64,000 bases of DNA from Actinomycetospora cinnamomea (lineage in GTDB: Bacteria; Actinomycetota; Actinomycetes; Mycobacteriales; Pseudonocardiaceae), in assembly GCF_003096675.1 (NCBI RefSeq), contig NZ_QEKW01000010.1, positions 62,001 to 126,000 on the forward strand. Reading direction: 5' to 3'. Below are positions 21,539-24,729 of this stretch, in pieces (position 1 is the first letter of the stretch; each line of letters starts with the position of its first letter). The notes below the pieces were generated by a model. The model was given only the letters and a program-made list of their open reading frames with translations. It was not told the DNA's origin and did not search any database. The translations under genes and the position numbers were made by a program.

Positions 21539-21904
21539 TCAGCTGCGCCCGCCGAGGCGGCCGCGGCCGAGGCGCAGCAGGAGCATCCCCAGCTCCCGGC
21601 CCTCGGCGCCGAGCTCGCGGAAGCGGGCGAGCACCTGCATCTCGCGGTTGTAGACGATGCGCGGCCCGCCGGCGGCCATCCGGGCCAGGCCGATGCGCTG
21701 CGAGATCTCCGAGCGGCGCCGGATCAGGCGCAGCAGCTCCGCGTCGATGGCGTCGATCTCCTCGCGCAGCGCGGGGATCTCGTCGGCGATCGCGGGGGCG
21801 AGCGCGGCGGCCTCGCCCTCGCCGGCGTCGCCGTCGGTCGCGGGGGTGGAGCCGGCGGCGGAGCTTGCGGTGGAGCTTGCGGTGGAGCTGGCGGTGGCAC
21901 TCAC
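21539..21904 (-). CDS. aroQ: Chorismate mutase, AroQ type (mycobacterial intracellular kind)
   Basis: 121 residues. After a Ser/Thr/Ala-rich head (about 1-42), the AroQ core EEIDAIDAELLRLIRRRSEI is followed by QRIGLARMAAGGPRIVYNRE. The C-terminus ELGMLLLRLGRGRLG is the signature of M. tuberculosis Rv0948c, where it contacts DAHP synthase and raises activity. It converts chorismate to prephenate, the entry to Phe and Tyr. GTG 21904 has AGGAGG 8 bases upstream. The gene order to uvrD, M23 peptidase and sucCD is as in mycobacteria. Its 5' region carries an aromatic leader peptide and terminator (see 21972-22099), so Phe/Tyr attenuation is likely. Confidence 0.92.
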   Translation of the reverse strand: MSATASSTASSTASSAAGSTPATDGDAGEGEAAALAPAIADEIPALREEIDAIDAELLRLIRRRSEISQRIGLARMAAGGPRIVYNREMQVLARFRELGAEGRELGMLLLRLGRGRLGGRS

Positions 21905-21971
21905 GGGATCGGCCTCCTGGGTGTGTCCGGATGCTTCCGGGTCGGTGGGCCCACGACCCCGGACACGAGAA

Positions 21972-21999
21972 CGCCCCGGGGTCCGTGGACTCCGGGGCG
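21972..21999 (-). terminator. Attenuator hairpin upstream of chorismate mutase
   Basis: The arms CGCCCCGG and CCGGGGCG (21972-21979, 21992-21999) extend through a G-T pair and GTC/GAC to a 12-bp stem with a 4-base loop. On the minus-strand transcript it is followed by UUCUCG. It lies 67 bp before the chorismate mutase start and after a stop codon of a leader ORF, the position of an attenuator rather than of an end-of-gene terminator. Confidence 0.6.
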
Positions 22000-22024
22000 G
22001 CGTGGGTCGGGCGCGGCGGGCGCG

Positions 22025-22099
22025 TCAGTCGTCCACGGGCACCGGGGTCCGGTACCCGTAGAAAAATCGAACGGCCTGCACGTGCACGCAGGTCATCAT
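22025..22099 (-). CDS. Aromatic leader peptide of chorismate mutase
   Basis: A 24-codon ORF, ATG 22099 to TGA 22025, encoding MMTCVHVQAVRFFYGYRTPV plus PVDD. Four of five consecutive residues at positions 12-16 are aromatic (F, F, Y, G, Y), in a region where TTT and TTC codons are otherwise scarce. It lies between the uvrD promoter region and the chorismate mutase attenuator, and reads in the same direction as chorismate mutase. GAGGGCGGTGG precedes the ATG. A leaderless start at GTG codon 5 is an alternative. Ribosome stalling at the Phe/Tyr codons would control the hairpins that follow. Confidence 0.6.
   Translation of the reverse strand: MMTCVHVQAVRFFYGYRTPVPVDD
22031..22057 (-). promoter_or_regulatory. 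Candidate 1:2 hairpin and antiterminator segment of the attenuator
   Basis: In the minus-strand RNA, GGGUACCGG and CCGGUGCCC (22049-22057 and 22037-22045) form a 9-bp hairpin starting at the Gly-Tyr codons of the leader. The adjacent CCGUGGAC (22031-22038) is perfectly complementary to GUCCACGG in the terminator (21983-21990). The three elements are in classical order: leader codons, 1:2 hairpin, 2:3 antiterminator, terminator. Pairing is deduced by eye. Confidence 0.5.
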
Positions 22100-22197
22100 G
22101 CCACCGCCCTCGCGTGCGGCCAACCGCCCGAGCGTGTGTGGCCCCGAGCGCCTGCGGGCCGCTCGGTGTCGGAGGGCCCCGGTAGCGTGGGACGACG

Positions 22198-24729
22198 ATG
22201 AGCACCGGTCCCGCCACCCGCCCCCTCGAGCCCGACACCCCGTCGGGCCCGCCGGCGCGCTCGGCGGCGTCCGCCCTCTCCCGTCGTCTCGCCGCGGCGG
22301 CCGCCGGGGGTGGTGACGCCGGGGCCGGGGCGGCGGTGCGCCGGGCGGCCGAGCGCCCGGATCCGGAGCACGACCCCCTGCTCGAGGGCATGAACCCGCC
22401 GCAGCGCGAGGCCGTGGTGCACACGGGGTCGCCGCTGCTCATCGTGGCGGGCGCCGGGTCGGGCAAGACCCGGGTGCTCACCCACCGCATCGCCTGGCAG
22501 ATGCGTCACCAGGGCGTGGGGCCGGGCCAGGTCATGGCCATCACGTTCACCAACAAGGCCGCGGCCGAGATGCGGGAGCGGGTGGCCGCGCTGGTCGGGC
22601 GGCGGGCCAACGCGATGTGGGTCTCGACGTTCCACTCGATGTGCGTGCGCATCCTGCGTCGCGAGTACCGCCACCTGGACCTGAGCTCGACGTTCTCGAT
22701 CTACGACGCCGACGACTCGCGGCGGCTCGTCGCGTCGGTGGCCCGGGGGCTCGACCTCGACGCCAAGAAGTACTCGCCCCGCGGGCTGCTGGCGCGCATC
22801 TCGGCGTGGAAGAACGAGCTGGTCCCGCCGGTGGAGGCCGCCGACGCCGCCACCACCGAGGCCGAGAAGCGCACGGCCGAGGTCTACACCGTCTACCAAC
22901 AGCGGCTGCAGCAGTCGAACTCGCTCGACTTCGACGACCTCATCGGCCGCACCGTCGACCTGCTGACCCGCTTCCCCGACGTCGCCGAGTACTACCGGCG
23001 CCGGTTCCGGCACATCCTCGTCGACGAGTACCAGGACACCAACCACGCGCAGTACATGCTGGTCCGGGCCCTGGCGGCGGGCAGCGAGGACGGCGCGGTG
23101 CCGCCCGCCGAGCTGTGCGTCGTCGGCGACGCCGACCAGTCGATCTACGCCTTCCGCGGCGCCACCATCCGCAACATCGTGGAGTTCGAGCGCGACTACC
23201 CCGAGGCGCGCACGATCCTGCTCGAGCAGAACTACCGCTCCACCCAGCGCATCCTCACCGCGGCCAACGCCGTCATCAGCCGCAACCCGGACCGTCGCGA
23301 CAAGCGGCTGTGGACCGACGCGGGCGACGGAGAGCTGGTGGTCGGCTACGTCGCCGACAACGAGCACGACGAGGCCGCGTTCGTGGCCCAGGAGATCGAC
23401 CGGCTCGTCGACGCGGGGGAGTACCGGTTCGGCGAGGTCGCGGTGTTCTACCGGACCAACGGCCAGTCGCGGGTCTTCGAGGACGTCTTCATCCGCCTCG
23501 GGCTGCCCTACAAGATCGTCGGTGGGGTGCGGTTCTACGAGCGCCGCGAGGTCCGCGACGCGCTGGCGTACCTCAAGGTGCTGTCCAACCCCGAGGACAC
23601 GGTGTCGCTGCGCCGCATCCTCAACGTGCCCAAGCGCGGTATCGGCGACCGCGCCGAGACGGTGGTCGCCGACGCCGCCGACCGCGATCGCACCACCTTC
23701 GCCGCCGCGCTGCGCCGCGCGGCCGCAGGCGAGGTCCACGGCCTGGCCACGCGCTCGCAGCGCAACATCGCCGACTTCGTCGAGATGCTCGACGGGCTGG
23801 CCGAGCTCGTGGTGGGCGGGGCGCCGGTGGACGAGGTGCTCGAGGCGATCCTCGAGCGTTCGGGCTACCGCGCCGAGCTCGAGGGCTCGGAGGATCCCCA
23901 GGAGCAGTCCCGCCTGGAGAACCTCCAGGAGCTCGTCAGCGTGGCCCGCGAGTTCGTCCAGGACGCCCGCAACGCGGAGGGCCTGGACGAGGACACGATC
24001 GTCGCGGAGCGGACCGAGGAGCAGGCCGCGAACCAGGACCCGGCCCAGGACGAGGACGGACCGGCCCCCGGCTCGCTGGAGGCATTCCTCGAGCGGGTCT
24101 CGCTGGTCGCCGACGCCGACTCGATCCCCGACGGCGGGGACGGCGTGGTGACGCTGATGACGCTGCACACCGCCAAGGGCCTGGAGTTCCCGGTCGTGTT
24201 CGCGACGGGCTGGGAGGACGGCGTCTTCCCGCACTCGCGGGCGCTGGCCGACCCCGCTGAGCTCAGCGAGGAGCGCCGGCTCGCCTACGTCGGCATCACC
24301 CGCGCCCAGCAGCGCCTCTACCTGTCGCGCGCGGTGATGCGGTCGGCGTTCGGCCAGCCGCAGGCCAATCCGCCGTCACGCTTCCTCGACGAGGTCCCCG
24401 CCGACGTGTGGGACTGGCGGCGCCTCGAGCCCAGCGCGGAACGCTCGTCCCCGGTCGGGCGCACGCGCTTCGGCGCCGGGCGCTGGGCGAGCCCGGGCAC
24501 CGACATCAGCGGGCGCCCCTCCCGCCCGTCGCCGATGCGCCCGGACTGGAAGGAGGCGCCGACGATCTCCCTCGACGTCGGCGACCGCGTCAGCCACGAC
24601 AAGTACGGCCTCGGCACCGTCACCTCGGTCGACGGCGTGGGCTCGCGGGCCACGGCGACCATCGACTTCGGCTCCTCGGGCACCGTGCGGCTCATGCTCA
24701 TCGGCGGCGTGCCGCTCACCAAGCTGTAG
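22198..24729 (+). CDS. pcrA: ATP-dependent DNA helicase UvrD/PcrA (UvrD1 type)
   Basis: 843 residues, superfamily 1A 3'-5' helicase. After a 60-residue Ala/Gly-rich head come the Q-motif NPPQREAV, Walker A AGAGSGKT (Lys90), TFTNKAAAEMRERV (Ia), VDEYQDTNHAQY (II), GDADQSIYAFRGA (III), LEQNYRST (IV), TLHTAKGLEFPVVF (V) and VGITRAQQRLYLS (VI). The C-terminus is a Tudor-like fold (GDRVSHDKYGLGTV), which binds RNA polymerase in relatives. Roles are nucleotide excision repair, replication-fork processing and transcription-coupled repair. A TAGCGT -10-like hexamer lies about 10 bp before ATG 22198, so the message may be leaderless. Confidence 0.96.
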   Translation: MSTGPATRPLEPDTPSGPPARSAASALSRRLAAAAAGGGDAGAGAAVRRAAERPDPEHDPLLEGMNPPQREAVVHTGSPLLIVAGAGSGKTRVLTHRIAWQMRHQGVGPGQVMAITFTNKAAAEMRERVAALVGRRANAMWVSTFHSMCVRILRREYRHLDLSSTFSIYDADDSRRLVASVARGLDLDAKKYSPRGLLARISAWKNELVPPVEAADAATTEAEKRTAEVYTVYQQRLQQSNSLDFDDLIGRTVDLLTRFPDVAEYYRRRFRHILVDEYQDTNHAQYMLVRALAAGSEDGAVPPAELCVVGDADQSIYAFRGATIRNIVEFERDYPEARTILLEQNYRSTQRILTAANAVISRNPDRRDKRLWTDAGDGELVVGYVADNEHDEAAFVAQEIDRLVDAGEYRFGEVAVFYRTNGQSRVFEDVFIRLGLPYKIVGGVRFYERREVRDALAYLKVLSNPEDTVSLRRILNVPKRGIGDRAETVVADAADRDRTTFAAALRRAAAGEVHGLATRSQRNIADFVEMLDGLAELVVGGAPVDEVLEAILERSGYRAELEGSEDPQEQSRLENLQELVSVAREFVQDARNAEGLDEDTIVAERTEEQAANQDPAQDEDGPAPGSLEAFLERVSLVADADSIPDGGDGVVTLMTLHTAKGLEFPVVFATGWEDGVFPHSRALADPAELSEERRLAYVGITRAQQRLYLSRAVMRSAFGQPQANPPSRFLDEVPADVWDWRRLEPSAERSSPVGRTRFGAGRWASPGTDISGRPSRPSPMRPDWKEAPTISLDVGDRVSHDKYGLGTVTSVDGVGSRATATIDFGSSGTVRLMLIGGVPLTKL

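Follow-up and report, generated by a model that had tools for sequence, protein, structure and literature searches.

A predicted Phe/Tyr attenuation leader upstream of chorismate mutase in Actinomycetospora cinnamomea and its relatives

The chorismate mutase locus

The window, a 64,000-nucleotide stretch of the Actinomycetospora cinnamomea genome, contains on its minus strand an aroQ gene (21539..21904, GTG start at 21904) that encodes a chorismate mutase (CM) of 121 aa. This identity had been given in a preliminary description of the locus and is borne out by two NCBIfam models, PRK07857 and TIGR01808, both matched above their cut-offs. The Shine-Dalgarno sequence of aroQ, AGGAGG (21913..21918), follows a GC-rich hairpin that may act as a terminator and lies outside it, as had been described. 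The gene on the other side, pcrA (TIGR01073), is on the plus strand from 22198 onward. Measured from a GTG at 22087, the leader between pcrA and CM is about 183 nt long, and it contains a short open reading frame with consecutive Phe, Phe and Tyr codons. These codons precede the gene for a step towards Phe and Tyr, the end products of the pathway.

The 24-codon ORF reported earlier, MMTCVHVQAVRFFYGYRTPVPVDD followed by a stop codon, is present on the minus strand (22099-22025) with FFYGY as residues 12-16. The start codon then assigned to it did not stand: ATGATG overlaps a -10-like hexamer, CATGAT (22095..22100), and a -35-like hexamer, TTGGCC (22118..22123), is found 17 nt upstream of CATGAT. 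Because CATGAT, the next 7 nt and GTG 22087 sit as the matching elements do in relatives, ATGATG is most likely the -10 box and not a start; the start in common with relatives is GTG 22087. The mRNA probably begins with the leader, a leaderless ORF of 20 codons that encodes VHVQAVRFFYGYRTPVPVDD before its stop codon (22025..22087, minus strand). The putative regulatory codons TTT TTC TAC (Phe Phe Tyr) are at 22058..22066, with CGA before them.

Two hairpins follow in order, and both had been described with other dimensions. The first, an anti-antiterminator (1:2) that begins at the Tyr codon (22033..22061, minus strand), has 13 bp and not 9 bp; it has a folding energy of -23.6 kcal/mol alone and 14 bp within the long fold. 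The second, the candidate terminator (3:4, 21972..21999), has 8 and 3 bp around one A.C mismatch in place of the 12 bp reported (-22.0 kcal/mol), and its tail, UUCUCGUG at 21971-21964, is weak. A further pairing, of the 3′ arm of this terminator with the sequence immediately downstream (~21985-21945, minus strand), is possible in the genus of the window and in some members of family f8; it could be compatible with the antiterminator.

Conservation of the leader

We examined a first set of 41 genomes, including that of the window, of which 40 have a CM match. A leader of the same layout is upstream of CM in 36 of the 40, the window included: in all 30 of L001-L030 and in six of the other ten (L081-L086), with L020 and L024 entered into the count by hand. 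Two of the four without a clear leader (L080 and L088) have other short ORFs bearing F/Y; for L087 the CM alignment was not significant and for L089 there was none, and both are outside the 36. In congeners L007 and L014, His-Gly replaces Tyr-Gly, and the second Phe codon is replaced by a codon for Ser, Ala, Arg or Pro in several congeners.

A model built from the leaders was then matched to named CM loci, the best 80 of at least 339, a choice that biases the set to Pseudonocardiaceae and Mycobacteriaceae. The element is on the CM strand just upstream of the gene in 79 of the 80, with scores of 55.6-91.7 bits, and six of the 79 leaders are identical to rows that built the model. The sole miss, L228, has a promoter-like box and a GTG, but its short ORF is devoid of an aromatic run. 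The L228 record (a Bifidobacterium breve MAG) and the L231 record (Candidatus Melainabacteria) contain actinomycete-type CM loci and are probably mislabelled bins. Class-wide, CM exceeds the family cut-off in 54 of 296 genomes; the element lies no more than 290 nt away in at least 42 of the 54, including 16 genomes that contributed rows to the model. Among the matches listed, 12 of the 54 show no element upstream, and eight of these 12 are from the window's own order. Same-order genomes with CM and without an aromatic leader include L047, L048 (g26), L049, L051 (g27), L052-L054 (g28), and L050 (g15); in L047, L048 and L051 a promoter-like box is retained, together with a short ORF from which the aromatic run is absent. 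Same-layout leaders with F-S-Y-G or F-T-Y-G precede CM in three loci of family f33 (L061, L066, and L174).

Outside the class, the best model score in 246 phylum genomes was 32.7 bits, which is at noise level. The window genome has a single strong locus (90.1 bits), the next match elsewhere in it scores 20.6 bits, and no second copy of comparable score was found there. Inspected matches of about 24-33 bits that lie away from CM and DAHP synthase genes resemble gene-end terminators or other GC hairpins, and we rejected them. The pattern TTYTTYTAYGG occurs at six sites in the 5.97-Mb genome, and the reversed control pattern at three; of the six, only the window site starts with TTT. Rfam returned no matches at gathering score, and relaxing the limit to E<=10 gave three sub-threshold matches, all of them to unrelated families; three leader peptides tested against NCBIfam matched no model. 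Four same-genus genomes (L090-L093) encode a second, divergent CM-like gene ~15-17 kb away, for which the motif scan found no aromatic leader. Conservation is the strongest evidence that the leader exceeds chance, and the conserved aromatic ORF and covarying stems that the preliminary description had proposed to seek in relatives were both found.

The 79 named leaders start with GTG in 69 cases, ATG in nine and TTG in one, and the start is nine codons before Tyr in 64, where the start was chosen by a rule placing it 6-10 codons upstream of Tyr where possible. An NANNNT hexamer (mainly CACACT, CATACT or CAGACT) precedes the start in 76 of 79, at a spacing of 6-7 nt in 74, and the conservation of this -10-like hexamer predicts that the leader is transcribed. 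A Shine-Dalgarno-like motif precedes the leader start in only one of the 79, and the leader stop codon is 30-36 nt past Tyr in 75. A strict scan of 21880-22210 for sigma-70 and U-tract consensus called neither promoter nor terminator; we do not treat this outcome as decisive, given a -10 of the CANACT type. Mycobacterial mRNAs that begin with ATG or GTG are reported to need nothing more for translation (PMC4633059). The window genome's own type II DAHP synthase gene (L334), with TAGGCT 7 nt before its GTG, also looks leaderless.

The codons themselves are conserved. Among 55 leaders, position -2 relative to Tyr is Phe in 53 (TTT in 50), position 0 is Tyr in 52 (TAC in 44), and position -3 is CGA in 39; among the 79 named leaders, Phe is at -2 in all 79 (TTT in 77), TAC at 0 in 77, and CGA at -3 in 46. 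The next Phe codon after the near-invariant UUU (CGA UUU at 22069-22064 in the window) is mainly UUC (54 of 79). In three window genes, TTT accounts for 0 of 37 Phe codons; thus, the conserved UUU is not ordinary codon use there. We suggest that UUU may be a slow codon that is sensitive to starvation.

Competing pairings and the proposed attenuator

Two sets of leaders were used to analyze RNA pairing. Removal of two irregular rows (L029 and L043) left 53, and 11 near relatives (L006, L008, L010, L011, L016, L032, L033, L039, L040, L044, and L046) were left out to give alignment A1 with 42 rows. A second alignment contains 70 distinct rows that have no sequence in common with the leader model. 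The shuffle statistics given for both alignments ignore kinship among rows.

The conserved antiterminator (2:3) pairs GGACYCCGG with CCGGAGUCC. In the window, its 5′ strand (segment 2) is GGACCCCGG at 22042..22050 and its 3′ strand (segment 3), at 21987..21995, is also within the 5′ arm of the terminator. On A1, 84.0% of cells are paired and 21 are doubly changed, compared with a shuffled mean of 10.3 (0 of 500 shuffles as high); slides of 1-3 columns give at most 64.7% pairing, with fewer doubly changed cells and a lower score. On the 70 independent rows, 95.2% are paired and 22 are doubly changed (shuffled mean 5.3, 0 of 500), and slides give at most 68.4% pairing, with 14 doubly changed cells at the +3 slide (34.4% paired). 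The antiterminator in the preliminary description, CCGUGGAC (22038-22031) with GUCCACGG (21990-21983), is present in the window and complete in close relatives only. We rejected it as a general antiterminator: all eight pairs form in four of the 42 A1 rows, window included, and three or fewer form in 11 of the 42.

For the terminator (3:4), 91.4% of A1 cells are paired and 30 are doubly changed (shuffled mean 13.1, 0 of 500), with slides at or below 60.8%. On the 70 rows the aligner misregistered the terminator arm (80.0% paired compared with 80.5 for shuffles, no covariation), so the covariation of 3:4 rests on A1. The 1:2 hairpin is 89.6% paired on A1, where four pairs changed on both sides, and 89.8% paired on the 70 rows, with 37 doubly changed cells compared with 16.3 (0 of 500). 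The pair between columns 69 and 84 switches among U-G, A-U, U-A, C-G and G-C, and residue +2 is Tyr, Ile, Asn, Thr or Pro in the named leaders; here pairing is preserved and the peptide is not. Hence 1:2, 2:3 and 3:4 covary (3:4 on A1 only) and are mutually exclusive, with the codons at segment 1.

Given the ORF and its codons, the spacing of promoter and start, these pairings and the linkage to aroQ, we predict with high confidence that the element is a ribosome-mediated transcription attenuator for aroQ that senses Phe (and Tyr). The attenuator reading of the preliminary description holds by conservation and covariation, with its start codon and antiterminator corrected. From the -10 spacing we infer that transcription starts at or beside GTG 22087, so that the mRNA would open with the leader ORF. 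When charged tRNA-Phe/Tyr is ample, the ribosome would reach the UGA at 22027 and sit on segment 2; with segment 2 occupied, the terminator would form and RNA polymerase would halt before aroQ. Under shortage of Phe (or Tyr), the ribosome would stall at UUU-UUC-UAC and cover segment 1. Segment 2 would then be free to pair with segment 3, the terminator would be blocked and aroQ would be transcribed.

The GC hairpin may not be an intrinsic terminator, in which case control would be Rho-dependent or translation-coupled, with the leader ribosome deciding the access of Rho. The weak U-tract, which had been pointed out earlier and holds in most relatives (70 of the 79 named leaders have at most three T among the 10 nt that follow the hairpin), is consistent with this, as are the absence of a terminator call by the scanner and the f8 member L040, left out of A1, which seems to be without the hairpin. 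It is unlikely given the covariation of the terminator arms on A1, their incompatibility with the antiterminator, and the T-runs that follow the hairpin in some distant members (L027, L028, L030, and L084). Row-by-row folding also argues against it, since the hairpin is possible in 79 of 79 named leaders (median -24.1 kcal/mol), a count made without a shuffle control in GC-rich DNA that folds easily. Alternative folds could instead control access to the aroQ ribosome binding site, and sequestor/anti-sequestor leaders of that kind are described in Actinobacteria (PMC1262725). Such translational attenuation is quite improbable here: the Shine-Dalgarno sequence is 53 nt past the terminator, and no conserved pairing that was tested includes it.

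A nascent-chain arrest peptide or a small protein, and not a codon sensor, would account for the conservation of [TS][PA]xPV as amino acids in the C-terminal half at named loci. However, the nucleotides of that half form hairpin strands, residue +2 is variable while its base pair is kept, and the DAHP synthase leaders found elsewhere carry other peptides, and we consider a peptide function highly improbable. Chance is the simplest reading of a short ORF with incidental hairpins in GC-rich DNA, which folds readily; the folding check suggested earlier gave a window fold that beats 197 of 200 dinucleotide shuffles, with a z-score of only -2.7. Set against conservation, covariation and codon invariance across many genera, chance is scarcely credible.

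Aromatic leaders before DAHP synthase and known attenuators

Low-scoring matches of the leader model in family f31 are upstream of a DAHP synthase gene (TIGR01361, above cut-off in the three proteins tested). The 18 f31 loci (L138-L153, L157, and L177) have a TATA[GT]T box 7 nt before the leader ATG; examples of these leaders are MQRNFWRFYGYRPISPVACKALR and MRTAWSFWYGDGPVRTDRLHALR. Antiterminator complementarity in f31, tested per sequence, is mostly no better than in shuffles, and for this reason we claim no antiterminator for these loci.

The phylum sample of DAHP synthase genes comprises 70 loci, the 30 best-scoring and 40 hand-picked for spread. A short ORF with at least four F/W/Y in six codons is found at 20 of the 70, compared with three on the opposite strand and none in shuffles. 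Two of the 20 (L273 and L284) were set aside as likely chance. On visual inspection, each of the other 18, all from the 40 picks (L292-L331), has a promoter-like sequence, followed by a leader and a GC-rich hairpin ahead of the gene, as in MSERFGDWFFYGGPGPA and MRDYFWFYGTSGSPEADAR, and L261 has one further leader of the same kind. Leaders that combine Trp, Phe and Tyr codons with a GC hairpin precede type Ib DAHP synthase in several families of Actinomycetota, the 18 picks and L261 belonging to other classes. Trp is present in every f31 leader (18 of 18) and in 17 of the 18 others (35 of 36 in total). The CM leaders have it in the core in 0 of 79 and at any position in 4 of 79, a contrast between sets that differ in taxonomy and in which the threshold of four aromatics favors Trp-bearing leaders. 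It seems that leader codons vary with the branch point of the pathway.

The search of the window genome yielded no type Ib DAHP synthase. For 30 type II DAHP synthase genes from this genome and its relatives, two of them with less than 500 nt of upstream sequence, no upstream ORF has four aromatics in six codons; three in six codons occur in 1 of 30, whereas the opposite strand has them in 4 of 30. We tentatively propose, at somewhat short of even confidence, that a phylum-wide theme of aromatic attenuation has moved between control points: type Ib DAHP synthase, with Trp/Phe/Tyr codons, and CM, with Phe/Tyr only, in lineages of the class without that enzyme. Codons and placement would have been re-tuned together, on leaderless mRNAs with the rare UUU as main sensor. 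Among the order and class genomes listed, only G031 has a type Ib DAHP synthase; it also bears the CM leader, a combination that is no simple fit to a moved theme.

In Escherichia coli, the pheL-pheA attenuator has a Phe leader before a bifunctional CM-prephenate dehydratase and follows 1:2/2:3/3:4 logic. The window element is similar in having a leader with Phe codons at the CM step, and differs in its monofunctional AroQ CM, its probably leaderless GTG leader, its Phe-Phe-Tyr codons and its weak U-tract. The E. coli attenuator is cited in PMC11802643, and Corynebacterium glutamicum is reported to have a Phe-Tyr-Phe leader (aroR) before the DAHP synthase gene aroF (PMC11802643, PMC4046766). 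The latter is likewise an actinobacterial Phe/Tyr leader for an enzyme of the aromatic pathway, but it precedes DAHP synthase and not CM. Leaderless leader ORFs, several without a typical U-tract terminator, are reported for Streptomyces lividans, leuL, ilvL and trpL among them (PMC8079986); the window element, with its probably leaderless ORF and weak U-tract, is comparable and differs in the amino acids concerned. None of the eight S. lividans leaders listed there is at chorismate mutase. The Mycobacterium tuberculosis ilvB1 attenuator has, as proposed for the window element, a uORF with regulatory codons and a terminator/anti-terminator switch in an actinobacterium, and is described for branched-chain amino acids (PMC13236596). 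The mycobacterial polycysteine short ORFs are leaderless and regulatory, as the window leader probably is (Shell 2015, PMC4633059), but they respond to cysteine by translation attenuation, as cited in PMC13236596.

Seliverstov et al. (2005) report no conserved RNA structures upstream of Phe/Tyr operons in Actinobacteria (PMC1262725). The word "chorismate" is absent from the main text of three papers on S. coelicolor and mycobacterial translation (PMC4895711, PMC4633059, PMC9094748), a survey of premature terminators (PMC2965389) and a paper on leader reinitiation (PMC4833913). We found no description of a CM attenuator in Actinobacteria in the literature searched; subscription literature was outside its scope, and a prior prediction is possible.

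Annotation may overlook such leaders, we suggest, given their mostly GTG starts, their length of about 20 codons and their lack of a Shine-Dalgarno sequence. The genera that bear the leader include Amycolatopsis and Saccharopolyspora, both well-known makers of antibiotics. The DAHP synthase leaders provide a natural test of whether leader codons track the branch point of the pathway. If the proposed attenuator is real, it would place the Phe/Tyr branch under amino-acid control in Actinobacteria, where the 2005 survey saw none.
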